Below, in pieces: positions 23,957-63,720 of a stretch of DNA of 64,000 nt. Position numbers and translations under genes: made by a program. The number at the start of each line of letters is the position of its first letter. Within the stretch, counting starts at the first letter, position 1. Origin of the DNA: Halobiforma lacisalsi AJ5 (GTDB lineage Archaea; Halobacteriota; Halobacteria; Halobacteriales; Natrialbaceae); NCBI RefSeq assembly GCF_000226975.2, contig NZ_CP019285.1, forward strand, positions 3,720,001 through 3,784,000, in the 5' to 3' direction. Below the pieces are notes generated by a model. The model saw nothing but the letters and a program-made list of their open reading frames with translations. It was not told the origin of the DNA and did not search any database.

Positions 23957-24215
23957 AGGTAAATCAGTGGCCGGTGGGCCAACCGTACCTGTGATTTCCC
24001 CTACTGAACCTAAAGCCTTTGCTATACATTACCAAGAATTTTTCGTGAAGAATGGGCAGTCGTTCAGAATTACGAATGAAAGATTATTACTGTACCGCTA
24101 ACTGCCGACCTCGATTTCCGTTCATCGACGGACGGATCCGTGAGTTGGACGCCATCGGCCAACCACATTGTGGGTCGACGATATCTTTTACCGTCCGTTC
24201 GTGGTACCTTCACGC
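23957..24215. promoter_or_regulatory. divergent promoter region of porAB and the E2-OsmC gene
   Basis: In these 259 bases, A/T-rich sequence at 24000-24095 contains the porA promoter. TCTTTTACCG at 24184-24193 lies about 25 bases before the E2 ATG at 24216, fitting a leaderless transcript. No palindrome stood out. Confidence 0.45.
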
Positions 24216-48626: not shown

Positions 48627-50162
48627 TCACTCGTGGTCGTGGCTGTGCTCGTCCTCGTGGTCGTGATTGTGGTTATGATGGGTATGCTCGTGCCCGTGCC
48701 CGTGTCCGCGCTCGTGCTCGTGCTCGTGCTCGTGAGCACCCGGACCCCGACGCGTAAACTGGCCCGCGAACCCTCGATCGACCACCTCCGACAGCGCGGG
48801 ATGGATATGGACCGACTCCCGGATGTCCCACACCGTCCCCGTACCGGCCGTCATCGCCACGACGACCTCCTCGATGAGGTTCGACGCCTCGGGACCGAGG
48901 ATGTGACAGCCCAGGATCTCGCCCTCCGGCTCGATGATCGCCTTGACGAACCCCTCGGCGTTCATCGCCTGGCCGCGGGCGGTGTCCTCGTACCGATACG
49001 TCCGCGTCGCGTACTCCCGGTCCGCCTCCCGGAGCTCCCCCTCTCGAGCGCCGACGCCGGCCACCTCGGGCGAGCCGAACACGGCGAAAGGCATCGCCGA
49101 GTAGTCGACCGGCTCGAGTCCCTCGCTGAACAGGTTCCGGGCGACGGCGCGGGCCTCGTGGTTTGCGTTGTGTTTCAGCAGGTACTCGCCGACGATGTCG
49201 CCCAGCGCCCAGACGCCGTCGGCGCTCGTCCGCAGGTACTCGTCGGTCTCGACGAACCCGCGCTCGTCGGTGTCGACGCCCGTGGCCTCGAGGTCGAGCA
49301 GGTCCGAGTTGGGCCGACGGCCGGCCGCGATCAGGAGGGTGTCGCCGGTCACCGTCACCGGGTCGTGTGCGTCGGGGTCGTCCCACACCGGCGGATAGGG
49401 GCGCGCGTCGACGGCGACCTCGCCGCCGGACTCGCTCGCGGCGACGGCTTCGTATCCGGTGTGGACCTCGAACCGGTCGGCGTACCGCTCGGTGAACGCG
49501 GCGCCGACCTCCTCGTCCGCCGCTGGGAGCAGGTGCGGCCGCCGGCCGACGATCGACACCTCGCTACCGAAGGTACCGAAGAAGTGCGCGAGTTCCGCCG
49601 CGATGTAGCCGCCGCCGACGATCATCAGCCGATCGGGCGGCGACTCGAGTTCCAGCGCCTCGCGACTCGTGAGATAGTCGACGTCCTCGATCCCCTCGAT
49701 CGGCGGGATCGCCGGACGGGTACCGGCCGCGACGAGAACCGTCTCCGCGCTGAGACGTCGGCCCGCGTCGGGCCCGTCGACGACCTCGAGGGTTCGATCG
49801 TCGACGAAGCTGCCCTCGCCGCGCAGCAAGTCGTGTCGGTCGGAGGACCGCAAGCCCCGCTCGATCGACTCGGCACTGTCGGCGACGTCGTCGTTGACCT
49901 CGCGGACGATCTCCGCGAACTCGACGTCGGAGACCTCGGCGTGGATGCCGAACTCCTCGGCTCGCTCGACGGTCTCGAGCACTTCCGCGTGATACAACAG
50001 TTGCTTCGACGGGATGCAGCCGCGGTTGAGACAGGTCCCCCCGAGCGGCCCCTTCTCGACGACGGCGACCGACTGGCCGCGGTTCGCCGCCGCGTTCGCG
50101 ACGTCGAGGCCGGAGCCGGAGCCGACGACCAGGAAGTCGACTTCCGTGTCGTGCGTTTCCAT
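48627..50162 (-). CDS. flavin disulfide reductase (dihydrolipoyl dehydrogenase/mercuric reductase-like) with His-rich tail
   Basis: The 511-residue class I pyridine nucleotide-disulfide oxidoreductase has FAD motif VVGSGSGLDVANAAA, redox pair Cys44/Cys49 (GGTCLNRGCIPSK), NAD motif MIVGGGYIAAELAHFFGTFG and the C-terminal His-Glu pair in HIHPALSEVVD. These make it competent as a dihydrolipoyl dehydrogenase, mercuric reductase or related enzyme. Its last 35 residues hold 16 His alternating with Glu, Gly, Asn or Asp, a strong metal-binding tail encoded by a CGTGCT-rich repeat. It could serve as E3 for the E1/E2 complex at 24-29.5 kb or handle a metal. The start is at 50162. Confidence 0.87.
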   Translation of the reverse strand: METHDTEVDFLVVGSGSGLDVANAAANRGQSVAVVEKGPLGGTCLNRGCIPSKQLLYHAEVLETVERAEEFGIHAEVSDVEFAEIVREVNDDVADSAESIERGLRSSDRHDLLRGEGSFVDDRTLEVVDGPDAGRRLSAETVLVAAGTRPAIPPIEGIEDVDYLTSREALELESPPDRLMIVGGGYIAAELAHFFGTFGSEVSIVGRRPHLLPAADEEVGAAFTERYADRFEVHTGYEAVAASESGGEVAVDARPYPPVWDDPDAHDPVTVTGDTLLIAAGRRPNSDLLDLEATGVDTDERGFVETDEYLRTSADGVWALGDIVGEYLLKHNANHEARAVARNLFSEGLEPVDYSAMPFAVFGSPEVAGVGAREGELREADREYATRTYRYEDTARGQAMNAEGFVKAIIEPEGEILGCHILGPEASNLIEEVVVAMTAGTGTVWDIRESVHIHPALSEVVDRGFAGQFTRRGPGAHEHEHEHERGHGHGHEHTHHNHNHDHEDEHSHDHE

Positions 50163-50226: not shown

Positions 50227-51471
50227 TTACGAAAAAGACGCGAATGCGCCGGGGAGCCGGGCGTACGCCTCGGCCGTCGCGGCGAGGGCGTCGACGGTCG
50301 TGTACTCGTCGCAGGCGTGGGCCGTGTCGGTTGCGACGGCGAACTCGACGGTCGGAATCCCGGCGTTTCGCAGTTGCTTGGCGTCGCCACCGCCGGTCGC
50401 ACTGCGTCGGAAGACGTCCTCCTCGAGGACGTCCGTCGCGACGCTCCGGGTCGCCGCGACGACCGGCGCGTCGGGGTCCTCGTAGGTGCCGACGCTCCAG
50501 CCGACGTCCGCGATCGAGACGCCCTCGTGGTCCACGAGCCACTCGCGAACGTCGGCGAGGACGGCCGGGGTCTCGACGCCGGGTGCCAGCCGGACGTCGA
50601 GTTGGGCCGTCGCTTCCCGCGGCACGCTGTTTACCGCCTCGCCGCCCTCGAGCGTCCCCAGGTTGACCGTCGGTCGCTCGAACAGCCGGCGTGCGGTCCT
50701 CTCGCCCATCGCCGGGGCGTAGTAGTCGACCGACTCCTCGAGGACGGGTTCGACGGCCCCGGGGACGGATAGCCGGCGGGACTCGAGTCGACCGCGGACG
50801 TCCTCGAGGGCCGCCCAGAGGCGATCGATCGCGTTCTCGCCCAGCATCGGACGTGAGCCGTGGGCGGCCTCCCCGGTAGCCTCGAGGGTGAGCCAGATGC
50901 TCCCGCGGTCTGCGACCGTGATCGACGCTCGCTCCGCGTCGCAGGTCGGTTCGCCGATGACGCAGGCGTCGGCCGCGAGCCGATCGCGCTCGAGGAGGGC
51001 CCTGACACCCGCCTCGCCCGCGATTTCCTCGTCGCTGACGAACACGAACGAAAGCGTCACGGGCGGCGTCGTTCCGGTCTCGACGTACGCGCGGGCGACT
51101 TCGACCATCGCGGCGACCGCGCCCTTCATGTCGGTGGTGCCGCGACCGTAGATTCGATCGCCGACGCGCTCCCCGAGCGGGTCGTACGACCAGCCGTCGG
51201 GATCGTAGGGGACCGTATCGAGGTGCCCGAGGAAAAGCAGCGTTCGCTCGCCGTCGCCCGGCAGGGTCGCGAGCAGGTTCGGCTTTTCAGGGTCGGTCGC
51301 CACCCGGTCGGTCTCGAGGCCGAGGTCGTCGAACCACGACTCGAGGAGGGCGACGCTCTCGCGGGTGTTTCCGGGTGGATTCGTGGTCTCGAGGCCGACG
51401 AGCTCGAGCGTGCGGTCGGCGACCGCGTCGCGTCGGTCCTGAAGGGAAGAGATGGTCGAAGGGGACCTCAT
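50227..51471 (-). CDS. M20-family metallopeptidase (ArgE/DapE/carboxypeptidase-like)
   Basis: The 414-residue protein starts MRSPSTISSLQDRRDAVADR. Zn-binding motifs: FLGHLDTVPYDP (first His-Asp), YGRGTTDMKGAVAAM (bridging Asp), VSDEEIAGEAG (catalytic Glu pair) and a C-terminal CDEYTT. Acyl-amino acid deacylases and dipeptidases share this layout; the dimerisation domain begins near ITVADRGSIWLTLEATGEAA. Substrate unknown, although ArgE/DapE enzymes are closest. Its ATG overlaps the stop of the upstream HTH regulator (ATGA), so the regulator and enzyme are in one operon. Confidence 0.88.
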   Translation of the reverse strand: MRSPSTISSLQDRRDAVADRTLELVGLETTNPPGNTRESVALLESWFDDLGLETDRVATDPEKPNLLATLPGDGERTLLFLGHLDTVPYDPDGWSYDPLGERVGDRIYGRGTTDMKGAVAAMVEVARAYVETGTTPPVTLSFVFVSDEEIAGEAGVRALLERDRLAADACVIGEPTCDAERASITVADRGSIWLTLEATGEAAHGSRPMLGENAIDRLWAALEDVRGRLESRRLSVPGAVEPVLEESVDYYAPAMGERTARRLFERPTVNLGTLEGGEAVNSVPREATAQLDVRLAPGVETPAVLADVREWLVDHEGVSIADVGWSVGTYEDPDAPVVAATRSVATDVLEEDVFRRSATGGGDAKQLRNAGIPTVEFAVATDTAHACDEYTTVDALAATAEAYARLPGAFASFS

Positions 51472-51989
51472 GGGTTGCGGTCCGTGTCCGTGTCCGTGTC
51501 CGTGTCCGTGTCCGTGTCCGTATCCGTGTTCGCGTTCACGTTCACGTCGGTCCCAGCTTCCGTTCCCGTTCCCGTTCCTGTTTCCGTTCGTTTTCTGGTC
51601 GCTTCTATCCCGTCCGCGTCCCCGTACTTGTCCTCGAACTCCCGGACGAGCTGGGCCATCTTCGCGTACCAGTCGTTGAGTTTGCGCTGCATGTCCGCGG
51701 CGACCTGAGAGGGATCGGCCGGCGAGTAGACGTGATAGTAGCCGCCCTGGTCGTAGTTGACCTGCGTCTTCCGGACGATTCCGCTCTGGAGCAGTCGCTG
51801 GACCGAGCGGTACGCGGTGGATCGCTCCCGTCCGACCCGGTCGGCCACCTCGTCGATCGTCAGCGGATCGTCCGCCTCGACGAGGGCCCGAAAGCAGTCC
51901 CTGTCGAGTCCCTTGAGGCCGTGGATACACTCCAGTAGCCCCTCACACGCCATCTCCCCCTGGAGTTGGTCGGCCATCGAGTTTGCCAT
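51468..51989 (-). CDS. Cys-rich TrmB/HTH-type transcriptional regulator with repeat tail
   Basis: The 173-residue protein starts MANSMADQLQGEMACEGLLE. Cys residues at about 15, 21 and 32 lie before and in a winged helix (DPLTIDEVADRVGRERSTAY), and a long helix follows (PSQVAADMQRKLNDWYAKMA). It is a paralogue of the regulator at 54575-54982. From memory both resemble OxsR, a thiol-sensing TrmB-type regulator in Haloferax. An extra tail of about 37 residues consists mostly of Thr-Asp pairs, from TCCGTG hexamer repeats. A TTGT-N11-ACAA palindrome sits directly upstream of its TATA box, so it may regulate itself. The downstream gene is an M20 peptidase. Confidence 0.82.
   Translation of the reverse strand: MANSMADQLQGEMACEGLLECIHGLKGLDRDCFRALVEADDPLTIDEVADRVGRERSTAYRSVQRLLQSGIVRKTQVNYDQGGYYHVYSPADPSQVAADMQRKLNDWYAKMAQLVREFEDKYGDADGIEATRKRTETGTGTGTEAGTDVNVNANTDTDTDTDTDTDTDTDRNP
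51481..51546. repeat. TCCGTG hexamer repeat coding for a Thr-Asp tail
   Basis: Eleven in-frame 6-base units (eight TCCGTG-type, the rest TTCGCG/TTCACG) at the 3' end of the HTH regulator gene. Copy number should be prone to slippage, so tail length may vary among strains. Confidence 0.8.
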
Positions 51990-52027
51990 GATCGTACGAT
52001 ACGGTACGTTCCCGTCCCTGATAATAG

Positions 52028-52046
52028 TTGTGTGCGTTCTACACAA
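52028..52046. promoter_or_regulatory. TTGT-N11-ACAA palindrome before the HTH regulator gene
   Basis: TTGTGTGCGTTCTACACAA: six bases pair at each end. It starts 39 bases upstream of the ATG (51989) and directly abuts the TATA-like TGATAATAG (52020-52027). The same spacing and arms recur at 55015-55037 and 63228-63246. Confidence 0.65.
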
Positions 52047-52083
52047 TTTAGTACAATTCGAATTGGAGACGGCGCGTGGGGAG

Positions 52084-52464
52084 TCAGTCCGCATCGTCGC
52101 CGGTCGTCGCTTCGGTCCCACACCACGGGCAAAACGCCAGGTCCGCCTCGAGTTCGCGATAGCAGTTCGAGCACCGGACCGCGCGTTCGGCCTCGAGACG
52201 GAGATTGTGTCTTGTAGCGAGCGCGTAGGCATCGATGGCGCTTGCGAGACCGACGGCGGCGATCGGAGCAACGTCCCGTACTCCGGCCGTCCCGGGGTTC
52301 GCGAGCGCCGATTCGGGGACGAAGGCGACTCCAACCAGTAGCGACAGGGCGACCCATCCCACCGCACGCAACCATCGGCGGACGTACACTTGGCCGAGTC
52401 CCGTTGCCAGCAGCGTGAGAATGGCGGCGAGCCACGGCCGCTTCGCGGACGAGCGTCCATCCAT
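52084..52464 (-). CDS. small membrane protein with C-terminal zinc ribbon
   Basis: The 126-residue protein starts MDGRSSAKRPWLAAILTLLA. Three hydrophobic helices (about 11-29, 34-51 and 65-84) are followed by a zinc ribbon CSNCYRELEADLAFCPWCG (about 98-116). The haloarchaeal DUF7575-type proteins combine a DUF4870/TM2-like membrane part with such a ribbon (label from memory). An inverted repeat TGACT-N8-AGTCA (52469-52486) ends four bases before its start region and shares CAGTTAG with the one before the FNT gene. Function unknown. Confidence 0.72.
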   Translation of the reverse strand: MDGRSSAKRPWLAAILTLLATGLGQVYVRRWLRAVGWVALSLLVGVAFVPESALANPGTAGVRDVAPIAAVGLASAIDAYALATRHNLRLEAERAVRCSNCYRELEADLAFCPWCGTEATTGDDAD

Positions 52465-52523: not shown

Positions 52524-53564
52524 CTACTCCGCATTCTCCCGGCCGGCCGCCTCGAGCAGGGGAACGTATGCTCGACCGACGAGGCTGCCGAACGCCCACT
52601 CGCGGAGCGAGAGGCGACGCGTGATCCCCTCGAAGCGGGCCGACTCGAGCCGGCGTTCGCTCGTCTGGTTGTAGTTGACGACGGCGACGAGGAGGACGCC
52701 GCCGAGCGTGTTCCCGAGCAACACCGGCAGCACGAACCCGACCAGTCCGGTTGAAAAGGCAACCTCCCCGGCGAGTGTCGCGTACGAAAGCTCGGTGAAG
52801 GCGGTCACCACGTGAAACAGGTTTCCCACTGGAATCGCCAGAAACGCCATGTACACGACGACGATCCGGGACAGCGTGTCCCGAACGGCGAACGAGACCC
52901 AGACGACGCCCGCGACGATTAGCCCGGCGAACGCGGCCTTGAAGAACAGGCTCCACCAGCCGACCTCGAGCCCGTGGGTTCCGAGGTGGACGCCGGCCTC
53001 GGCTGCCTCCCCGGAGAGGACGCCACCCCACGCGAGTGCTGCCGCGCCGAGGAACGCGCCGAGGAAGTTACTCCCCAGGACGACCAGCCAGTGGTGCAGG
53101 AGCGCCGGCACGCTCGCGAACCGCTCGAGCGTCAGCGCGACCGGCGGGAGCGTGTTCTCAGTGTACAGCTGATAGTCGCCGATGATGATGTTGATGAAGC
53201 CGAGCGGATACAACAGCGCGCTCAGTATCGGGTGGCCGTCGGTCGTCCCGTACAGGGACGCATAGAGGAGGAAGGTAAGCGTGATCGCAAACCCCGCCGC
53301 GAGCCCGCTGAAGAACAGTTCGCGAGTCCCGGACGTAATCTCCTCGTCTGCAGCGGCGACGATCCGCTGGAACACCTCGTCCGACGAGAACCGATCGTGA
53401 ACGACCGAACCGGCCGCCGGAGCACCGCTTCTGGAGCGCTCGACGGCGTTTCGAACGGTCTCCTCTCGACCGGTCGTACTCCCCGTCGCTTTTCCGTTCG
53501 TCGTGTCGGTATCGGTCCGCCAGTCCGCCGGCGAACCGGTGTGATCGTCTTCAGGAGAACCCAT
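52524..53564 (-). CDS. formate/nitrite/hydrosulfide (FNT) channel family protein
   Basis: The 346-residue protein has an N-terminal soluble extension of about 75 residues and then the six-helix FNT pore: EITSGTRELFFSGLAAGFAI, IGDYQLYTENTLPP, LGSNFLGAFLGAA, KAAFAGLIVAGVVWV, GLVGFVLPVLLGNTLGGVLL and NYNQTSE. The repeats PL/F...GN and N-G...L form the two constrictions of FNT channels, which pass formate, nitrite or hydrosulfide as acids. Given neighbouring sulfur genes, hydrosulfide is attractive but unproven. The start at 53564 (MGSPEDDHTG) removes 38 codons that overlap the putative operator. Confidence 0.88.
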   Translation of the reverse strand: MGSPEDDHTGSPADWRTDTDTTNGKATGSTTGREETVRNAVERSRSGAPAAGSVVHDRFSSDEVFQRIVAAADEEITSGTRELFFSGLAAGFAITLTFLLYASLYGTTDGHPILSALLYPLGFINIIIGDYQLYTENTLPPVALTLERFASVPALLHHWLVVLGSNFLGAFLGAAALAWGGVLSGEAAEAGVHLGTHGLEVGWWSLFFKAAFAGLIVAGVVWVSFAVRDTLSRIVVVYMAFLAIPVGNLFHVVTAFTELSYATLAGEVAFSTGLVGFVLPVLLGNTLGGVLLVAVVNYNQTSERRLESARFEGITRRLSLREWAFGSLVGRAYVPLLEAAGRENAE

Positions 53565-53652
53565 GATAGATCCGAATCCGAGGATTTCTACCGCCTGATC
53601 GTCCGGATCCGGGCAACGACGGAGCCGGAACCCGGCCGGCGGATCGAATTCA

Positions 53653-53672
53653 CTAACTAATCGGTCAGTTAG
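53653..53672. promoter_or_regulatory. inverted repeat upstream of the FNT channel gene
   Basis: CTAACT-N8-AGTTAG lies 89 bases before the FNT start. It shares CAGTTAG with 52477-52483. It looks like a TetR- or AcrR-type operator, but no TetR-family gene was seen in this window. Confidence 0.4.
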
Positions 53673-53853
53673 CGGCATAAATGGTTCGATCGGCTCCTCG
53701 ATGTGGTAGCCAGGAGGAAAACCGAGATCACACGATTCGACGGATCGATTCCGACGACCACCGTGCCGCCGACGTGAGCCCCGATGCGCGGCGACTCGGA
53801 TCCCTGTGACTCACCGCGACGATCGGGGCCGACACACCGGAATCTCGAACGGG

Positions 53854-55078: not shown

Positions 55079-56122
55079 TCAGTCTGCGGAGGCCGCGGCC
55101 GTCTTCGCCTGGCGTCGCATCGTCATAACCGTGCTGTAGATCACGGCACCGCCGACCATGAACGCCGAGAGCAGGATCAGGGCGAAGCCGACCGTGTTGA
55201 ACGCCTCGATCCCGAAGTAGTCCCCGGCCTGCTGGAACGCAACGGCGACCGCGCCGCCCAGCAGCATCAGCCCGAAGTAGATCTTGATGTCGTCCTCGTT
55301 GACGATGCTGGTCGCGGCCGAGCCGATCCGTGCGCCGAGCGCGCTCCCCGCGAGCAGCGGCGCGACGATCGAGAGGTCGACGCCGCCGTTGAGCCCGTAG
55401 GTGAACGCCCCGAACCCGCCCGAGAAGACGATCTCGAACAGATCGGTCCCGACGGCCACGGGTACCGGAACCCCGATGAGGTAGAACATCGCGGGCATCC
55501 GGATGAATCCGCCGCCGACGCCGAGGAAACCCGACAGCAGTCCCGTGGCGAACGCGACGCCGAGGATCATCCACAGCGAAACCTGGATACCGCCCGCGAT
55601 CGTCATCATCGGCGGCACGCGGTACGACTGGATCTTCTTGGCGATATCCGGGATATCGTCGGCATCGATCTCCTCGTTTGCGGCCTCGTGGTGGCCACCT
55701 CCGCCGGAGCCGTCACCGCCGTCGTCTTTGAGTGCGTTTCGGGTGACGAACAGTCCGATCGTCCCCAACAGCCCGACGTACGTGATACCGATGACCCCGC
55801 CGGCGAGCCCGAGGTCCTCGAGCCGATAGACGAGGAGGCTACCGACCTCGATGCCGGCGGTCGTGCCGACGATCATCAACCCGCCGAGCTTGTAGTCGAC
55901 CTGCCCGAGGTCGTGGTGTTTCAGCGTCGCGATCACGGCCGTCCCGAAGACGAAAGCCATACCGCTCCCGACGGCGACACGGGCGGGATACCCCATCACG
56001 AGCAACGCGGGCGTGACGAGGAACGAGCCGCCCATGCCGAAGAAGCCGAACAGCACGCCGACCATGAAGCCGAAGCTCACGAACAGCGCGAGCGTCGTCA
56101 GTGCGATTCCAAACGGTTCCAT
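55079..56122 (-). CDS. TauE/SafE-family sulfur-anion permease
   Basis: The 347-residue protein starts MEPFGIALTTLALFVSFGFM, with eight helices. Pfam TauE/SafE features: FFGMGGSFLVTPALLVMGYP, AVGSGMAFVFGTAVIATLKH, GFLGVGGGFIRMPAMFYLIG and AVGTDLFEIVFSGGFGAFTY (duplicated halves). A cytosolic loop carries Gly/His/Glu (about 140-170). Family members move sulfite, sulfoacetate or other organosulfur anions, probably outward. It begins right after the stop of the small DUF7512-like gene. It sits beside the OxsR-like gene and near the TusA-SQR operon. Confidence 0.9.
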   Translation of the reverse strand: MEPFGIALTTLALFVSFGFMVGVLFGFFGMGGSFLVTPALLVMGYPARVAVGSGMAFVFGTAVIATLKHHDLGQVDYKLGGLMIVGTTAGIEVGSLLVYRLEDLGLAGGVIGITYVGLLGTIGLFVTRNALKDDGGDGSGGGGHHEAANEEIDADDIPDIAKKIQSYRVPPMMTIAGGIQVSLWMILGVAFATGLLSGFLGVGGGFIRMPAMFYLIGVPVPVAVGTDLFEIVFSGGFGAFTYGLNGGVDLSIVAPLLAGSALGARIGSAATSIVNEDDIKIYFGLMLLGGAVAVAFQQAGDYFGIEAFNTVGFALILLSAFMVGGAVIYSTVMTMRRQAKTAAASAD

Positions 56123-56269
56123 CTATGCGTGCTTGAGTCGGTCGACGACTGGCGTTGCGACCCGCTCGAGCGCACCGTACCCCACGTAGAGGACGATCGC
56201 CTCGAGGAGGACGGCACCCACGAGAGCGCCTGCCTGTACCGGTTCCGAATACGTTGCGAGGTCAATCAT
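56123..56269 (-). CDS. small single-helix membrane protein (DUF7512-like) before tauE
   Basis: This is a 48-residue protein starting MIDLATYSEPVQAGALVGAV, with one hydrophobic helix (about residues 15-35) and a short charged tail (ERVATPVVDRLKHA). The TAG at 56123-56125 touches the tauE ATG (56122), so it is its operon leader. I recall such tiny genes beside haloarchaeal TauE as DUF7512. It is too short for long-frame searches but has a clean start and a promoter region upstream (56270-56420). A transporter accessory is plausible inference. Confidence 0.72.
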   Translation of the reverse strand: MIDLATYSEPVQAGALVGAVLLEAIVLYVGYGALERVATPVVDRLKHA

Positions 56270-56362
56270 CGGTATCGACCTCCGTGACTCAGTTGTGTGC
56301 GGATCATGGTTTTCTGCTCAGTTCCGTCTACCCGTGGGATGCCTATAACGCTTTTGGGCTAA

Positions 56363-56376
56363 GTGTACAATATTAC
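56363..56376. promoter_or_regulatory. half-site GTAATATTGTACAC upstream of the DUF7512-tauE operon
   Basis: Read on the minus strand this matches the inner half of the palindrome at 55015-55037 (AATATTGTAC). It lies 12 bases beyond the candidate TATA box of the operon. The left arm TTGT is not present at the standard distance. Confidence 0.4.
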
Positions 56377-56591
56377 TGCGATCAATCACACGGCTATCCA
56401 ACGGAGATATTCGGATAAGTTATGGAGATACCGGGGATCGACTTTCGCCGGCCCCTGATCGTCGCGCGCGCTACCTGGGGAAAGGCTATCGAGCGGCGGA
56501 AAAACTAATCGGGTTACAAACCAGTTCGGCCTCGTCCGGTCGTACTAAACGGCTTTCGTGGCGAATCGCGGCCCCAGTATTGAATCACCGA

Positions 56592-56603
56592 AACAATATT
56601 GTT
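56592..56603. promoter_or_regulatory. AACAATATTGTT palindrome in the UspA promoter
   Basis: This is a perfect 12-base palindrome ending 21 bases before the ATG at 56625. It shares AATATTGT with the other thiol-regulon candidates but lacks the ACAA partner at the usual spacing, so membership is uncertain. Confidence 0.35.
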
Positions 56604-56624
56604 ACGTCGTCACGTACGACGCGT

Positions 56625-57470
56625 ATGAAAGCGCTCTGTGCAACCGACCTCTCGGCCGCCAGCGAGGCGACGATCGAGAACGAAACCTGCCTCGAGTGTC
56701 TCGGTCGGATCGGCGTCGAAGAGATCCACCTCGTGACCGTCATCCCGTCGAACGTCCACGTGGGGATGCCCGGAATGGACTTCGAGAAGCGACGCGAAGA
56801 GGCGCTGTCACGGTACCGACAGGTCATCGAGGACGCCGGCTTCGACGTCGAAACGCACGTGGTGCGGGGGACCCCGCACCGTCGGATCACCGGTATCGCC
56901 GAGACGATCGGCGCAAGCATGACGATCGTCGGCTCACGGGGGAAGAGTCCGCTCGAGAACCGGGTGATCGGCTCGACGGCCCGCAACCTCGCGCGGACGA
57001 CGGTGACGCCACTGCTCGTCAACCGGGTCGAACGCGAGGCCGACGACCCCGACGTGGTTCGCCAGCACCTCTTCCAGCGGATGCTGTACGCGACGGACTT
57101 CTCGGAGAACGCCGACCGGGCGTTCGAGGCGTTCTCGTACCTCCGTCACGCGACCGATGAGGCGACCCTCGTTCACGTCGACACGCCGAAGGATCCCGGC
57201 CTCCCCGAGGACCAGGAGCCGGCGGACCGCCTCAGGGAACTGGCCGGTCGGCTCGAGGACTGGGGGATCGAGACGCGAACGGACGTGCGGACGGGGGATC
57301 CAGCGGACGAGATCCTCGCCGCCGAAACCGAATACGACCCGACGACGATTCTCGTCGGCTCCCGCGGACACAGTCGGCTCCGACGTCTGCTGCTTGGCAG
57401 CGTCTCCGAGGACATCGTGGCTCGAGCCGACGGCAACGTGTTGCTCGTGCCGCCGGAGCGGACGGCCTGA
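56625..57470 (+). CDS. tandem universal stress protein (two UspA domains)
   Basis: The 281-residue protein starts MKALCATDLSAASEATIENE. Both halves are UspA domains: the first has VGSRGKSPLENRVIGSTARN (G-x2-G-x9-G[ST]) near residues 105-125, the second begins MLYATDFSENADRAFEAFSY and ends VGSRGHSRLRRLLLGSVSED. Two complete ATP-binding motifs imply ATP-binding stress signalling. The chosen ATG removes 15 codons in the promoter region. It is divergent from the tauE operon and shares the promoter region that holds the AATATTGT motifs. Confidence 0.88.
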   Translation: MKALCATDLSAASEATIENETCLECLGRIGVEEIHLVTVIPSNVHVGMPGMDFEKRREEALSRYRQVIEDAGFDVETHVVRGTPHRRITGIAETIGASMTIVGSRGKSPLENRVIGSTARNLARTTVTPLLVNRVEREADDPDVVRQHLFQRMLYATDFSENADRAFEAFSYLRHATDEATLVHVDTPKDPGLPEDQEPADRLRELAGRLEDWGIETRTDVRTGDPADEILAAETEYDPTTILVGSRGHSRLRRLLLGSVSEDIVARADGNVLLVPPERTA

Positions 57471-57477
57471 ACGGCCG

Positions 57478-58032
57478 TCAACGACGGGCGACGACTGCCA
57501 GCGTCTCCGGCCGGTCGTGGACCCGCTCGACCGTGAACCCCGCCCGCTCGAGTTGTGCCACCACCTCGTCGGGACCGAACCGCTCCTCGACCGGCGGCCC
57601 GTCCTCGCCGTCCCCCGTGGCGGACCAGTCGACCGTGACGAGTCGCCCGTCCGGCCGGATCACTCGGGCGAGTTCCGCGAGCGTCTCGTCGTCGGCGTAC
57701 TCGTGGTGGGTCATCGTCGAGAACGCGCCGTCGAGGCCGTCGTCGTCGAACGGCAGCGCGGCGACGCCGCCCGTGACGAGTTCCACGTTCTCCGCCAGTC
57801 CAGCCTCGCGGTGGTACTCGTGCATCTCCTCTTGAACGTCGACGGCGTACAGCGTCCCGACGAAGGGAGCGACGTCCCGCGAATAAAAGCCCGTTCCCGA
57901 GCCCAGGTCGGCGACGACGTCGTCGCCGGATGGATCGAGCATCTCGAGCAGTTCCTCTCGCGAACAAAACCGGTACCGCGACGGGTCCTCGAGCGCGTCG
58001 GCGCGATCGACGGGAAACGTATGAAAGCCCAT
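57478..58032 (-). CDS. class I SAM-dependent methyltransferase
   Basis: The 184-residue protein starts MGFHTFPVDRADALEDPSRY. SAM motif VVADLGSGTGFYSRDV (about 38-53), then AVDVQEEM (acidic loop), ALPFDDDGLDGAFSTMTHHE and the late strand GRLVTVDWSA. The UbiE/small-molecule type is the closest by layout. It lies between the tandem UspA gene (convergent, 7 bases apart) and the small CydB-linked gene. The substrate is unknown. Confidence 0.85.
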   Translation of the reverse strand: MGFHTFPVDRADALEDPSRYRFCSREELLEMLDPSGDDVVADLGSGTGFYSRDVAPFVGTLYAVDVQEEMHEYHREAGLAENVELVTGGVAALPFDDDGLDGAFSTMTHHEYADDETLAELARVIRPDGRLVTVDWSATGDGEDGPPVEERFGPDEVVAQLERAGFTVERVHDRPETLAVVARR

Positions 58033-58107
58033 GCGTGGTAGTCGAGGGCCGAGTGCAATACGGTACCGATCTGATGGGAACGGACGGTCTCACCGCCACT
58101 GCCACCG

Positions 58108-58395
58108 TCACTCGGGAGCCCGGGTGCTCGAGGCGCGAAGCCATCCCTTGACGAGTTCGTTCACGTTATGAAAGACGATACCGACGGTGAGCAGCGACAC
58201 CGCCAGATAAATCACGAATCCGGGCGGCCCCTCGACTGCGGCCCCGAGGAATCCGCCAGCGAGACCGACGAGGGTAAGCTCGAACCAGGTCACAAGAATC
58301 CGGGAACTCAGTCGCGGCGGTGTGGCGACGGGCTCGAGCGACGATCCGTCATCGGGGCCAGTGGGGGCGTCGCCGCGGTCGGTGTCGGGGCACAT
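58108..58395 (-). CDS. small membrane protein downstream of cydB
   Basis: The 95-residue protein starts MCPDTDRGDAPTGPDDGSSL, with a soluble N-terminus of about 32 residues and two helices (about 37-58 and 60-79: WFELTLVGLAGGFLGAAVEG, VIYLAVSLLTVGIVFHNVNE). Its ATG overlaps the cydB stop (TGATG), so it is the last gene of the cytochrome bd operon. Small extra subunits such as CydX are known for bd oxidases in bacteria; this protein is larger and unrelated by sequence, so an assembly or stability role is only inference. Confidence 0.76.
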   Translation of the reverse strand: MCPDTDRGDAPTGPDDGSSLEPVATPPRLSSRILVTWFELTLVGLAGGFLGAAVEGPPGFVIYLAVSLLTVGIVFHNVNELVKGWLRASSTRAPE

Positions 58396-59396
58396 CAGTA
58401 CGACTCACCCGCTTCGATCGGGCCGCTGAACGCGGAGTAGAGGACCACGAAGTAGACGAACACGAGCGGAAGCAGGACGGCCGCTCCGATCGACATGAGG
58501 TTGAGCGGCAGCGTCGAGACGATGGCCGACTCGACAGTCAGTCCCGCGACCGGATCGATCGTCGGATACAGCAGGCCGGCGACGATCGCGACCAGGGCGA
58601 AGACGAGCCCTGCGGCGGCGCCGAACGCGACGTAGTAGCGGTCCGTTCGCGTCGCCGCCGCGTACACCCCGGCGAACGCGAGCGTAGCGACGACGAGTGC
58701 GGCGATCGGAACGGAAAACAGGTCAGGGCGCAACGCGGGCGCCGTCCAGTAGACGGCACCCAACGTCACCACGACCAGTGCGAGATATGCCGCGAGCGCG
58801 TAGTAGCCGGCCGTCTTGAGATCGACCCGGAGCTCACCTCGCGTCTTCAGCCGGAGGAACGCGACGCCGTCGACGACGGTCAGCGCGACGACGGCGAGGC
58901 CGACGACGATTCCGGGGAGTGTGACGATCGCCGTCGCGCCGAACAGCCAGTTCGCGGTGAACATGCCCAGGAAAAACGGAGCCGTGAGACTGCCGACGAC
59001 GAAGGATCGGCCCCACCAGCGTTGCCAGGCCTCGTCGTGGCGCTGCTCGTACATTTCGGGGGCGAGTCCACGGAGGATGAGCGCCCCCAGGATAGCGAAC
59101 ATCAACAGGTAGTGGCGGCTGAACAGGTTGGCATAGACCGCCGGGAACGCAGCGAACATGGCGCCGCCGAAGACGACGAGCCACACCTCGTTGCCGTCCC
59201 AGAACGGCCCGATCGCGGCCAGCAACCGTTCCCGCTCCTCCTCGTCGTCGCGGGTCGCGAACAGGACGCCGACGCCGAAGTCGAACCCGTCGAGGAACAG
59301 GAACAGAGCGAAGATGAAAAACAACAGTCCGAACCAGAGGTCGGGAAGGGGAAGCCCGAATAGCGGCTCACTCGAGAGCGACGCCGGATCAGTCAT
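58395..59396 (-). CDS. cydB: cytochrome bd quinol oxidase subunit II
   Basis: The 333-residue polytopic subunit has the standard CydB pattern: LFLFLDGFDFGVGVLFATRD, GPFWDGNEVWLVVFGGAMFA, AFPAVYANLFSRHYLLMFAI, LALVVVTLGAVYWTAPALRP and PLVFVYFVVLYSAFSGPIEA. It pairs with CydA to reduce O2 with quinol electrons without pumping, and bd oxidases are notably resistant to sulfide and other inhibitors. It overlaps the cydA stop by eight bases. Oxygen limitation and sulfide exposure would suit the neighbouring SQR-like gene. Confidence 0.95.
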   Translation of the reverse strand: MTDPASLSSEPLFGLPLPDLWFGLLFFIFALFLFLDGFDFGVGVLFATRDDEEERERLLAAIGPFWDGNEVWLVVFGGAMFAAFPAVYANLFSRHYLLMFAILGALILRGLAPEMYEQRHDEAWQRWWGRSFVVGSLTAPFFLGMFTANWLFGATAIVTLPGIVVGLAVVALTVVDGVAFLRLKTRGELRVDLKTAGYYALAAYLALVVVTLGAVYWTAPALRPDLFSVPIAALVVATLAFAGVYAAATRTDRYYVAFGAAAGLVFALVAIVAGLLYPTIDPVAGLTVESAIVSTLPLNLMSIGAAVLLPLVFVYFVVLYSAFSGPIEAGESY

Positions 59397-60813
59397 CGCC
59401 GCTCACCTCTGGTGCGGTCGCGTCCGATCCCTCGGTGGGGGTCACCGACGCCACGTCCGGCGGACCGGCCCGGACGATACGGACGACGACGTACGTATAC
59501 AGCGCGAGCAGTCCGAGGTAGACGACGGCGAAGCCGACGAGTGTCACCGTCGCTTCGGTCCCGCTCAAGCCTGACGAGACGCCCTCGCTCGTCCGCAGCA
59601 CGTCCTGAATGACCCACGGCTGGCGGCCGACCTCCGTGACGATCCATCCCAGTTCGACCGCGACGATTCCGAGCAGCGTCGATCCCATCAGCGCCTTGTG
59701 GAGCAGGTCGTCCTCGAGCAGTTCGCCACGCCACCAGCGGTAGCCGCCCCAGACGGCGAGCAGGACGAACCAGAACCCGAGCGCGACCATGATCCGAAAC
59801 GCCCAGAAGACGAGTGCGACCGGCGGCTGCGGGCCTTCGAACTCGTTCAGTCCCTGGATCGTCGCCTGCGGATCGCCGCCGCTGGCGAGCCACGACGCGC
59901 CGCCGGGGATGCCGATGCCGAAGATATCCTTGGCTCGCGGATCGAGCAGGTCCTGAAGGCTCGTCGGAAAGGCGACGATATACTCCGGAACGTACGCATC
60001 GGTCTCCCAGACGGCCTCCATCGCGGCGAACTTCTGGGGCTGGGTCTCGAAGACGTGTCGGGCGTAGAGGTCGCCATGAAGCACCTGCAACGGAGCGGTG
60101 ATGAGCAACGCGACGATCCCGATTTTGAGCGTCGTTTCCCAGAACTCGACGTCCTCGATGGGGTAGCCCCAGACGTGGTGGCGGAAGATGAAGTAGGCAC
60201 CGAGTCCTGCCATGAACAGGGCGACCGACTCGACGGCCGCGTTCTGCATGTGAACGAACATCCACGGGAACCTGGGGTTTGCGTAGGCAGCGATCGGATC
60301 GACCAGGTGAACGATCGTCTGTCCGTTCTCCGTCGCCAGTTCGTAGCCCCTCGGCGTCTGCATCCAGGAGTTGGCGATCAGGATCCAGACGGCCGAGAGC
60401 CACGTTCCGACGCCGACCGCGACTGCCGAGATCATGTACAGGACGTTGCCCACCCGGTCACGTCCGAACACGAAGATGCCGAGGAACGTCGCCTCGAGCA
60501 TAAACGCCATCATCCCCTCGAGAGCGAGCGGACCGCCGAACAGTTCCCCGGCAGTCGTCGAGAACGCCGCGAAGTTGGTTCCGAACTCGAACTCGAGGAC
60601 GATGCCGGTTACCGTGCCGACGACGAAACTGACGGCGAAGATTCGCGTCCAGAACCTGCGCAACTGCTCGTAGATCGGCTTCCCGGTTCGAATGTCTTTC
60701 CACGTGAAGTAGACGAGAAACGGGGCAAGCCCCATGCTCATCACGGGAAAGATGATGTGCACGATGGTCGTGAGCGCGAACTGCAGCCGACTTCCGGTGA
60801 CTGGATCGATCAT
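59389..60813 (-). CDS. cydA: cytochrome bd quinol oxidase subunit I
   Basis: The 474-residue subunit carries the hemes b558, b595 and d. The high-spin heme His19 (TTIVHIIFPVMSMGL), the second-heme His and Met region (VHMQNAAVESVALF, LKIGIVALLITAPLQVLHGD) and the quinol-loop motif GRQPWVIQDVLRTSEGVSSG are all present. The short Q-loop is of the cyanide-insensitive (CIO/CydA-short) type. The ATG at 60813 (MIDPVTGSRLQFALTT) is right. It is the first gene of cydA-cydB-small membrane gene; CGATTCGAATCG at 60846-60857 lies upstream. Confidence 0.95.
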   Translation of the reverse strand: MIDPVTGSRLQFALTTIVHIIFPVMSMGLAPFLVYFTWKDIRTGKPIYEQLRRFWTRIFAVSFVVGTVTGIVLEFEFGTNFAAFSTTAGELFGGPLALEGMMAFMLEATFLGIFVFGRDRVGNVLYMISAVAVGVGTWLSAVWILIANSWMQTPRGYELATENGQTIVHLVDPIAAYANPRFPWMFVHMQNAAVESVALFMAGLGAYFIFRHHVWGYPIEDVEFWETTLKIGIVALLITAPLQVLHGDLYARHVFETQPQKFAAMEAVWETDAYVPEYIVAFPTSLQDLLDPRAKDIFGIGIPGGASWLASGGDPQATIQGLNEFEGPQPPVALVFWAFRIMVALGFWFVLLAVWGGYRWWRGELLEDDLLHKALMGSTLLGIVAVELGWIVTEVGRQPWVIQDVLRTSEGVSSGLSGTEATVTLVGFAVVYLGLLALYTYVVVRIVRAGPPDVASVTPTEGSDATAPEVSGDD

Positions 60814-61027
60814 GTCGTGAATGTGAACCGTGGCCGGAAACGATGCGATTCGAATCGGAACTGCCGTCGGCTAACGGTAGGGGTCGGTCGGGAGTAGCGT
60901 TTCGGGTTCGAACGTCGAAATAGGAAGTTTTGACGCCCTATACGCGAGTTTGGTCCGAAAGCCGTCGACGAGCCATGGGAGGAATGGGGAGGACCGGCGG
61001 AATAGCGGGTAGTGGCTCAACGCTGAA
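60814..61027. other. intergenic region between cydA and DUF1641
   Basis: These 214 bases contain the perfect palindrome CGATTCGAATCG (60846-60857), about 35 bases upstream of cydA. It may mark a cyd operator, but palindromes of this composition arise easily in this G+C-rich DNA. Confidence 0.35.
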
Positions 61028-61672
61028 CTATCGTCCGAGCCGTTTCCCGATCCCGCGGGCGACGGCGATCGCGAATCCGAGGCCCCGGCGGACGTTCAGG
61101 TCCCGGAGGGCGCTCACCAGCCCGCGGAATCCGACCGGTTCCGGTGGGTCGGCGCTCGCCTCGCCGACGGCCTCGAGCAGCGACTCGAGCGTTCGAACCG
61201 TGTCCTCGTCGCTCGCGGTGTCCGCCAGTTCGCCGAGTCGCGTCCCGGTCGCCGCGAGGTCGGTCACCATCCCGTCGTCCATCGCGTTCGAGGCCAGCGC
61301 GGCGAGGTCCGCCAGCGCGACGAGGTCGTCGAGCGTCCCCGACCGCTGTAGCCGGGCGAGCGTCTCGAGTGCGTCCGCGAGGTCGTCGGCGTTCTCCCCG
61401 GTCGCCTCGCCGAGCCGTGCGACCTCGTCCGTCGCCAGCCCGTCCGCCGCGGCACCGAGGTTCGTCGCGGTACCGGACAGTTCCTGGACCATGCGGTCGT
61501 CCATCGCGGCCGTCGCCAGGTCCGCCGTGTCGAGGAGGTCGTTGACGACGTCGAGTCGCTCGAGGAACCGCGCGACTTCGTCGGGGTGCTCGGCGATCAG
61601 TTCATCGAGTTCCGCCGGCGGTTCGGTCCCGGCGTCGGCCCCGGGTTCGGACTCGGCTTCGGTCTCGGACAT
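61028..61672 (-). CDS. DUF1641 protein
   Basis: The 214-residue protein starts MSETEAESEPGADAGTEPPA, an acidic leader, followed by four or more amphipathic helical units (ERLDVVNDLLDTADLATAAM, SGTATNLGAAADGLATDEVA, DALETLARLQRSGTLDDLVA, LASNAMDDGMVTDLAATGTR). DUF1641 is often next to sulfide:quinone-type reductases and formate dehydrogenases in archaea and bacteria. The start overlaps the upstream reductase stop (TGATG), so it is the last gene of tusA-reductase-DUF1641. It may stabilise or regulate the reductase; unproven. Confidence 0.87.
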   Translation of the reverse strand: MSETEAESEPGADAGTEPPAELDELIAEHPDEVARFLERLDVVNDLLDTADLATAAMDDRMVQELSGTATNLGAAADGLATDEVARLGEATGENADDLADALETLARLQRSGTLDDLVALADLAALASNAMDDGMVTDLAATGTRLGELADTASDEDTVRTLESLLEAVGEASADPPEPVGFRGLVSALRDLNVRRGLGFAIAVARGIGKRLGR

Positions 61673-62814
61673 CAGAGTAACCCCCGTGCGGTCAGCCAGT
61701 ACGACTCGTTGTACCCCAGTTTCGCCCAGTGCAGCGGCGTCGACGGCTCACGGACGTACGGCTCCTCCCCGTAGCCGAACTCGATGAACGTCGCCTCGTC
61801 CATCCCGGCCTCGAGGAAGCAGACGGTCTTCCCGTCGTAGGTCGCCGTCGGAACCGTCCCGCGGACGCGGCTGGCGATCCGGTCGGCGACGACGCCCGCC
61901 TCGTAGTGGGCGACGCTGCCGGCCTTGCTCGTCGGGACGTCGGCGGTGTCGCCGATCGCATAGACGTCCTCGGCCGCCGTGGCCTCGAGCGTGTGCCTGT
62001 CGACGTCGACCCAGCCGTCCTCGCCGAGGCCGGCCGCGGTTACGAGGTCGCTCCCCCGGTGGGGCGGGATCGCCACGAGCAGGTCGTACGCGAGTTCCTT
62101 GCCTTCGACGGTCTCGATGACCTCGGCGTCGGGATCGACCTCGTCGACGTTGAAGAACGTCTCGAGGTTCACGTCGCGCTCTTCGAACAGGTCGCTCGCC
62201 CAGTCGGCGATCGGCTCGAGGCCGTGGGCGCGGTTGATCGGGTAGGTGTAGGTGAGTTCGACCTCCTCCCGCAGACCGCGCTCGCGGAGCCAGTCGTCGA
62301 CCATCAGGACGAACTCGACGGGTGCGGCCGGGCACATGTGCGGGACGCCGACGACGCTCAACACGAGGTGTCCCTCGGTGAACGCGGCCAGTTCGTCCCG
62401 CAGCGCCTCGGCACCGTCGGGGCCGTAGAAGTGGTGGCCACCCTCCGCCAGGCCGGGAACGGCTTCGGGCTCGAGGGTCGCGCCGGTCGCCAGCACGAGC
62501 TGATCGTAGGATAGTGCGGTCGCCCTCTCGGCCAGCGACAGCTGCTTTCGCTCGGTGTCGACGTCGGTGACTTCGTCGATCGTCAGCGTCACGCGCCGGT
62601 CGACCAGCTCCTCGATCGGCCGTTTCGCGTCGTCGACCGTCTTCTTTCCGAACGGGACGTACAGGAAGGTCGGCTTGTAGACGTGGTGCTCGTCGGCCGT
62701 GATCAGCCGGACGTCGACCTCGCCGGCCTCGATCTCCGGCTGAAGTTCGTCGGCGAGCCGGTTCGCGAGCACGGTACCGCCGGTTCCGCCGCCGACGATG
62801 GCGACTCGGTGCAT
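61672..62814 (-). CDS. sulfide:quinone oxidoreductase-like flavoprotein
   Basis: The 380-residue protein has FAD motif IVGGGTGGTVLANRL, second motif LVLATGATLEPEAVPG and the C-terminal FAD motif VYAIGDTADVPTSKAG. Potential catalytic thiols are Cys161 (PHMCPAAPVEF) and Cys332 (KTVCFLEAGMDEA). The CxxxP motif plus a second distal Cys suits SQR, which oxidises sulfide to sulfur species and reduces quinone; a general NADH dehydrogenase role cannot be excluded. It starts one base after the tusA stop. CydAB encoded nearby can re-oxidise the quinol. Confidence 0.84.
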   Translation of the reverse strand: MHRVAIVGGGTGGTVLANRLADELQPEIEAGEVDVRLITADEHHVYKPTFLYVPFGKKTVDDAKRPIEELVDRRVTLTIDEVTDVDTERKQLSLAERATALSYDQLVLATGATLEPEAVPGLAEGGHHFYGPDGAEALRDELAAFTEGHLVLSVVGVPHMCPAAPVEFVLMVDDWLRERGLREEVELTYTYPINRAHGLEPIADWASDLFEERDVNLETFFNVDEVDPDAEVIETVEGKELAYDLLVAIPPHRGSDLVTAAGLGEDGWVDVDRHTLEATAAEDVYAIGDTADVPTSKAGSVAHYEAGVVADRIASRVRGTVPTATYDGKTVCFLEAGMDEATFIEFGYGEEPYVREPSTPLHWAKLGYNESYWLTARGLL

Positions 62815-62815
62815 C

Positions 62816-63055
62816 TCAGTTCACCTCCAGGTAGATACGCCACTCATCGTCCAGTTCCTCGATCTCGAGCAGGTCGTGGCCTGCCTCCTCGAGCCACTCC
62901 GGAACGTCGGTCGTGGAGTTGCGGGCCGTGGTCTGCAGTTCGACCACGGTGCCCGGCTCGAGCGTTTTCACCTTCCCGATGAGGTCCATCAGCGGGCCGG
63001 GACACGTCGCACCACGCGAGTCGATCGTTACGTCAGGGGATATTGCGTTGGACAT
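62816..63055 (-). CDS. tusA: TusA/SirA-family sulfur carrier protein
   Basis: The 79-residue protein starts MSNAISPDVTIDSRGATCPG. TusA-like proteins carry sulfur as a persulfide on the Cys of CPxP; here Cys18 is in ATCPGPLMDLIGKV, followed by PGTVVELQTTARNSTTDVPE and the beta strand EWRIYLEV. In sulfur-oxidising archaea TusA passes sulfur from rhodaneses or DsrE-type proteins. It is the first gene of tusA-SQR-like-DUF1641. A TTGT/ACAA element (63083-63099) abuts its TATA element CTATAG (63075-63080). Confidence 0.92.
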   Translation of the reverse strand: MSNAISPDVTIDSRGATCPGPLMDLIGKVKTLEPGTVVELQTTARNSTTDVPEWLEEAGHDLLEIEELDDEWRIYLEVN

Positions 63056-63082
63056 CGTTCGATCACGTTTGTGTCTATAGTT

Positions 63083-63099
63083 TTGTGCAATATAAACAA
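63083..63099. promoter_or_regulatory. TTGT-N9-ACAA element upstream of tusA
   Basis: TTGTGCAATATAAACAA lies immediately upstream of the tusA TATA element (63075-63080 on the minus strand). The inner bases are not symmetrical, but position and arms follow the trxA site. Confidence 0.5.
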
Positions 63100-63227
63100 T
63101 CTCAGTAACCCCTGTCGGCTGGAATCGTCGAAGGGTATATGAGGTCCTCCTCGGATATCACGAACGACCACGGATACGGAGGGCTGGATCAGTCGGCTGC
63201 TTCTTCGGTCCGTTCCTGCGACAGATA

Positions 63228-63246
63228 TTGTTTCCTTTGTACACAA
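63228..63246. promoter_or_regulatory. TTGT-N11-ACAA element upstream of the second thioredoxin gene
   Basis: TTGTTTCCTTTGTACACAA aligns base for base with TTGTGTGCGTTCTACACAA at 52028 in 13 of 19 positions, including all of TTGT and ACACAA. It abuts the TATA element ATTATAG (63249-63255). Confidence 0.6.
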
Positions 63247-63279
63247 CCATTATAGTGATCGAGTGCGAACGACTGCGTG

Positions 63280-63720
63280 ATGGCTGACTCCCAGAACGGA
63301 AATCTCGACGACGAACGACAGCGGATTCGCGAAAAGAAAAAGCGCGAACTCCAGAAGCGCCTCGAGGACGGCGAGGAGTCGCTCGAGGACGCCGACGGGA
63401 CACCCGAAGAGCCGATCCACATCGAGGGGAGCGACCACCTCGACGAGGTCGTCGACGAGTACGACGTCGTGCTCGTGGACTGTTACGCCGACTGGTGTGG
63501 CCCCTGTCAGATGCTCGAGCCGACGATCGAAGCGCTGGCCGCCGAGACCGGCGCTGCGGTCGCGAAAGTCGACGTCGACGCTCACCAGCGACTGGCCCAG
63601 CAACTCGGCGCGCGCGGGGTCCCGACGCTGGTCCTCTACGCGGACGGCGAGCCGGTCGAGCGGATGGTCGGGGCACAGAACCGCGGGACGCTCGAGGGCC
63701 TGATCGAACAACACACGTAA
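63280..63720 (+). CDS. thioredoxin with charged N-terminal extension
   Basis: The 146-residue protein starts MADSQNGNLDDERQRIREKK. An N-terminal amphipathic, highly charged helix (about 10-40) is followed by a thioredoxin fold with WCGPC (Cys73, Cys76, plus Cys68 in LVDCYADWCGPCQM) and ARGVPTLVLYADGEPVERMV. A TATA element 25 bases upstream implies a leaderless message; the TTGT-N11-ACAA site abuts it. It is divergent from the tusA operon. The helical extension may target it to a partner; otherwise it acts as a disulfide reductase. Confidence 0.9.
   Translation: MADSQNGNLDDERQRIREKKKRELQKRLEDGEESLEDADGTPEEPIHIEGSDHLDEVVDEYDVVLVDCYADWCGPCQMLEPTIEALAAETGAAVAKVDVDAHQRLAQQLGARGVPTLVLYADGEPVERMVGAQNRGTLEGLIEQHT

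Follow-up and report, generated by a model that had tools for sequence, protein, structure and literature searches.

The gene at 48627-50162 on the minus strand of the 64,000-nucleotide stretch of the Halobiforma lacisalsi AJ5 genome analysed here (the window) raises two questions: what is the role of a flavoprotein disulfide reductase that ends in a run of histidines, and is this tail a functional part of the enzyme or a product of repetitive DNA? The reading frame is unbroken from ATG to stop, and its translation is a class-I flavoprotein disulfide reductase of 511 aa. The redox-active motif GGTCLNRGCIPSK (50004-50042, minus strand; residues 41-53) contains the pair Cys44-Cys49 (CxxxxC), and the catalytic dyad is His454-Glu459 within HPALSE (48786-48803, minus strand). 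All four residues are invariant in a 30-row alignment. An initial annotation had described both the cysteine pair and the dyad as intact, which they are; it had also written the dyad as HxxxxxE, where the actual spacing is HxxxxE. Its count of 16 His among the last 35 residues was borne out by the translation. This tail (48630-48734, minus strand; residues 477-511) is rich in Asp, Gly and Glu besides His, and structure prediction makes it disordered from residue 477 onwards.

To place the enzyme, we scored it against family models and solved structures. Pfam finds Pyr_redox_2 and Pyr_redox_dim domains, and NCBIfam assigns the protein to NF004946 (815.6 bits against a cut-off of 634), a subfamily that carries the name 'dihydrolipoyl dehydrogenase'; close relatives are annotated with the same name in public records. 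However, the enzyme scores below every NCBIfam equivalog cut-off that we compared: lipoamide dehydrogenase (TIGR01350, LpdA; 342.6 against 408.8), mercuric reductase (TIGR02053, MerA; 327.7 against 454.45), mycothione reductase (TIGR03452, 371.6 against 635.65; NF005884, 404.8 against 501), RclA (NF040477; 203.6 against 740) and glutathione reductase. The original description as 'lipoamide dehydrogenase or mercuric-reductase-like' was thus too broad. Among solved structures the best sequence match was a mycothione reductase (8qcj, E 3e-91), and using the predicted model (mean pLDDT 86.5) the best fold match was also mycothione reductase (TM 0.83 on the query, 38% identity). That enzyme (8qcj, 8rx5) has the same fold and motifs as the window enzyme and an Arg in the NADP site, but the alignment runs to the last 3 residues of its solved chain or closer, leaving no room for a His tail. 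Archaea are reported to be without mycothiol (PMC7278568).

Three more class-I reductases of clear similarity are encoded in the same genome (L002, L003 and L004; 53%, 39% and 27% identical, respectively). L003 passes the LpdA model (527.3), as does L067 of Halobacterium salinarum (532.5), and each adjoins an E2 gene, that of L003 being canonical. The genome that we take to be H. salinarum (G182; its bacteriorhodopsin is 100% identical to the query) has only L067 and L068 of these reductases. The bis-gamma-glutamylcystine reductase (GCR) of H. salinarum has been shown to be a different enzyme from LpdA (reviewed in PMC7278568), which by exclusion leaves L068 as the probable GCR; L004 is the counterpart of L068 in the genome of the window. 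GCR resembles the window enzyme in being a haloarchaeal class-I enzyme, and its substrate is a low-molecular-weight disulfide (PMC7278568). Both L068 and L004 contain GGGLCILRGCMPSK and lack a His tail, and their identity to the window enzyme is 27-29%. We rejected an identification of the window enzyme itself as GCR, the presumed H. salinarum enzyme being on a different branch and not orthologous. The window enzyme belongs to a third group, distinct from both the operon E3 and the presumed GCR, and we found no characterised member of this group.

The nucleotide specificity was considered from the alignment. Where the second strand of the NAD(P) domain ends (GRRPHLL, 49527-49547, minus strand; residues 206-212), the window enzyme has Arg-Arg where the LpdA proteins L003 and L067 have Glu (VVE); mycothione reductase reads IIGR. 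This weakly suggests that the window enzyme may use NADPH, the indication being weak because L068 has Glu at this position, yet GCR uses NADPH.

We also considered the proposal, made in the initial annotation, that the enzyme is the E3 (dihydrolipoyl dehydrogenase) of a complex formed with an E2-OsmC fusion protein (24201-26084, plus strand), an E2 acyltransferase with lipoyl and E3-binding domains and a C-terminal OsmC domain. The presence of both genes in the window, the E3-binding domain and the public name of the close relatives all speak for such a pairing. However, the two genes are 22 kb apart, the reductase gene does not lie beside 2-oxoacid dehydrogenase genes, and it is L003, not the window enzyme, that passes the LpdA cut-off and stands next to a canonical E2; the replacement of the LpdA Glu by Arg-Arg in the NAD site is a further point against it. 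Co-occurrence gave the same answer. E2-OsmC is found at high similarity in 34 of the 125 genomes of the family, and the tailed enzyme is present in 24 of these 34 and in 50 of the 91 genomes without E2-OsmC (Fisher p = 0.15), with ten E2-OsmC genomes having no tailed enzyme; nothing here points to a dedicated pair. We rejected the E3 assignment, which we regard as extremely unlikely, in view of the co-occurrence counts, the family score and the separate LpdA.

If the tail has a function, it should be visible in the relatives of the enzyme. An orthologue (about 69% identity or more) was counted in 74 of the 125 genomes of the family, and orthologues are also widespread in the order and on haloarchaeal plasmids and megaplasmids, the named records of relatives coming mainly from a plasmid collection. 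At least two His are present in the C-terminal tail of 92 of 95 distinct haloarchaeal orthologues, and across these 95 His makes up 39% of the tails versus 2.6% of the core. For a survey of tails and gene context we retrieved 80 orthologue neighbourhoods. At least two His within the last 12 residues were seen at 74 of 81 orthologous loci, compared with nine of 457 neighbouring genes of those loci (Fisher p = 5e-72, a value that overstates independence since the loci are related). Across the orthologues the His content is retained and the alternating residues drift. Between L001 and L007, which share 96% core identity, the aligned tails have 15 His in common, with 4 changes at His versus 13 other changes, in an alignment whose scoring matrix favours matching His.

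The tails range from short (SGQFSRGGHSH, ...GGHSH) to ~100 residues with 31 His. In a tree of the core sequences, read for its topology, short H-x-H tails are scattered over the orthologue group, whilst long tails are found in the clade of the window and, on at least four more occasions, outside it (L089/L035/L097/L096; L109; L098; L139). The repeat units differ between these expansions, and each has kept the His frame and a high His content. Three orthologues (L093, L134 and L147) are without a tail, which is therefore not essential for catalysis. No His tail is present in the paralogue L002 or in L036, nor was one seen in relatives from other archaea (20 retrieved, of which 11 were readable by motif). 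As judged from these comparisons of sequence, the tail characterises the enzyme group as a whole: it is ancestral, is kept by selection and has been lengthened repeatedly. Its conservation across orthologues lends support to the earlier idea of a real functional element that probably binds metal. Our literature search returned no description of a His-rich tail on such enzymes.

The tail-coding DNA consists of a hexanucleotide repeat in degenerate form (48631-48673, 70% match; 48685-48734, 86% match), and repeat slippage therefore helped to build it. Slippage could in principle be the entire explanation, with functionless low-complexity residues added by neutral expansion; the adjacent TrmB-type gene ends in (TD)n encoded by an almost perfect repeat, and His repeats also turn up in unrelated proteins encoded by the genome. 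A genome-wide search for the His-codon pattern found it at about the same frequency as a reversed control, and hexanucleotide repeats are common in this genome. What neutral expansion fails to account for is the retention of His in nearly all orthologues when their neighbours are without it, and the independent expansions from different units that all ended up His-rich and in the His frame. We thus rejected the neutral reading for the composition of the tail and accepted it for the length; as an account of the tail as a whole it is very improbable. We conclude that tail length is due to slippage and tail composition to selection.

Other repeats of this general kind were noted in the course of the analysis. 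The C-terminal (TD)n of the TrmB-type regulator (51468-52100, minus strand) derives from a repeat at 51480-51529 (95% match, 8.3 copies) that looks like a recent expansion in comparison with the older, degenerate repeat of the enzyme tail. Elsewhere in the same genome, L155 (C1:1035152) and L158 (C1:1285049) have (HD)n stretches, one internal and one C-terminal. L151 (C1:792413-792529), a membrane protein and possibly a metal transporter, has hydrophobic segments separated by a very long loop rich in His.

To explore the function of the enzyme we turned to its gene neighbourhoods. At 31 of 57 short-tail loci outside the clade of the window, a DsrE-like gene lies directly downstream on the same strand with a gap of 7-164 nt. 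The encoded protein has 118 aa with invariant Cys75 and Cys78 (alignment A2); its score against Pfam DsrE is sub-threshold (17.2 bits against a cut-off of 22.7), and it has no NCBIfam match. A profile search against PDB sequences gave nothing useful. In a fold search against the PDB, the first match was 2fb6, for which no function is assigned, and the second and third were the DsrE/DsrF-like 3mc3 and DsrEFH 2hy5. As an observation in its own right, L133:5463-5819:- and 31 relatives form an uncharacterised DsrE-fold family of 118 aa with an invariant CxxC, encoded beside short-tail orthologues. The DsrE-like partner is absent from the genome of the window and from the whole clade of the window, and the two context signals therefore stem from different lineages.

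The second of these signals comes from the clade of the window. Among its 24 loci, a gene for a rhodanese-MBL protein lies within 3.5 kb of the enzyme gene at 12, one for a TrmB-type regulator at 13, one for a thioredoxin at seven and one for TauE at seven. In the window itself, a formate/nitrite-transporter-family channel (52524-53678, minus strand; PF01226) is a neighbour. Further along, 55079-63720 holds a sulfide/sulfane-sulfur group: a TauE/SafE sulfite-exporter-family membrane protein (55079-56122, minus strand), a cytochrome bd oxidase pair (58395-60813), a DUF1641 protein, a sulfide:quinone-reductase-like (SQR-like) flavoprotein (61672-62814, minus strand; best NCBIfam match type III SQR, below the cut-off), a TusA-family sulfurtransferase (62816-63055, minus strand) and a thioredoxin. 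The neighbourhoods point to a role in sulfane-sulfur or thiol redox, by association and not as proof.

The position of the tail can be compared with that of the metal-binding arm of mercuric reductase. From Glu459 to His477, the first residue of the tail, is 18 residues, and from Glu446 to Cys464 in Tn501 MerA is also 18 residues. In MerA, the C-terminal Cys pair passes Hg2+ across to the other monomer (PMC10587081). The window enzyme thus resembles MerA (1zk7) in where the C-terminal arm starts, the parallel being one of sequence position, but differs from it in that the Cys-Cys pair is missing, the tail being His-rich without any Cys, and in that the His-Glu dyad of disulfide reductases is retained.

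Taken together, our best explanation is that the window enzyme may be an NADPH disulfide/persulfide reductase in sulfur/thiol redox, a class-I enzyme of a haloarchaeal subfamily adjoining mycothione reductase, with a selected metal-binding C-terminal arm. We give this explanation as a whole a probability of about 0.45. It is built on the enzyme class, the conservation of the tail, its sequence position and the gene context, all of which were observed directly. From knowledge of the class we infer that NAD(P)H would reduce FAD, which would in turn reduce the Cys44/Cys49 pair, and that the final electron acceptor would be a small disulfide or persulfide; His454'/Glu459' from the other subunit would be the acid-base catalyst. 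The substrate field would likely be low-molecular-weight thiol or sulfane-sulfur redox, because a DsrE-fold partner is found in most short-tail genomes and persulfide/sulfide genes are found in the clade of the window. The tail is probably metal-binding, with Ni, Cu, Zn or Co as candidate transition metals; since it starts where MerA has its metal-delivering Cys pair, the arm could keep a metal close to the opposite subunit's active site or at a distance from it. We think that a metal which buffers or regulates the thiol chemistry is more likely than a metal as the main substrate. A bolder version, in which this is an unrecognised haloarchaeal metal/sulfur flavoenzyme whose His arm, replacing the MerA Cys pair, delivers metal to the active site of the partner subunit together with a DsrE-fold sulfur carrier, would be a long shot.

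Histidine is a good ligand for Cu(II), and a serious rival to the favoured disulfide/persulfide reading is that Cu(II), or some other metal ion, is caught by the arm and reduced by the dithiol of the opposite subunit, as MerA does with Hg or RclA with Cu. The suggestion of reductive metal detoxification in the initial annotation keeps some plausibility because Cu(II) is reduced by the related RclA (PMC7464077, PMC10587081), a class-I enzyme that also has the His-Glu pair and whose C-terminal loop carries no Cys-Cys motif; the start of the arm at the MerA Cys-pair position (PMC10587081) would fit as well. However, the MerA and RclA cut-offs are clearly missed, the disulfide-reductase dyad is retained, and the usual neighbours are sulfur/thiol genes rather than metal genes, with a ZIP gene within 3.5 kb of the enzyme at just 4 of 81 loci. 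We consider a metal reductase unlikely. The tail may alternatively serve in docking, oligomerisation, solubility or pH sensing, with no metal bound in the cell, as its predicted disorder, its wealth of Asp, Gly and Glu beside the His, and its very variable length might suggest. Acidic residues alone would suffice for solubility at high salt, whereas it is His that is the retained component of the tail, even in the shortest examples (...GGHSH); such a metal-free role is also rather unlikely.

Natural His-rich stretches have been met in haloarchaea before, in PitA and Cdc48d, which are unrelated to the window enzyme by name and size; PitA binds nickel resin (PMC8576121, PMC11169840), and the natural tail of the reductase may likewise do so and appear as a contaminant of His-tag purifications. 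The enzyme is encoded in dozens of haloarchaeal genomes, where its common label, 'dihydrolipoyl dehydrogenase', finds no support in the evidence presented here. With a selected His arm at the delivery position of MerA, the idea that a disulfide reductase handles metal can be put to a direct test, and the pairing with a DsrE-like protein points to a thiol/persulfide pathway in archaea that use gamma-glutamylcysteine and not glutathione.
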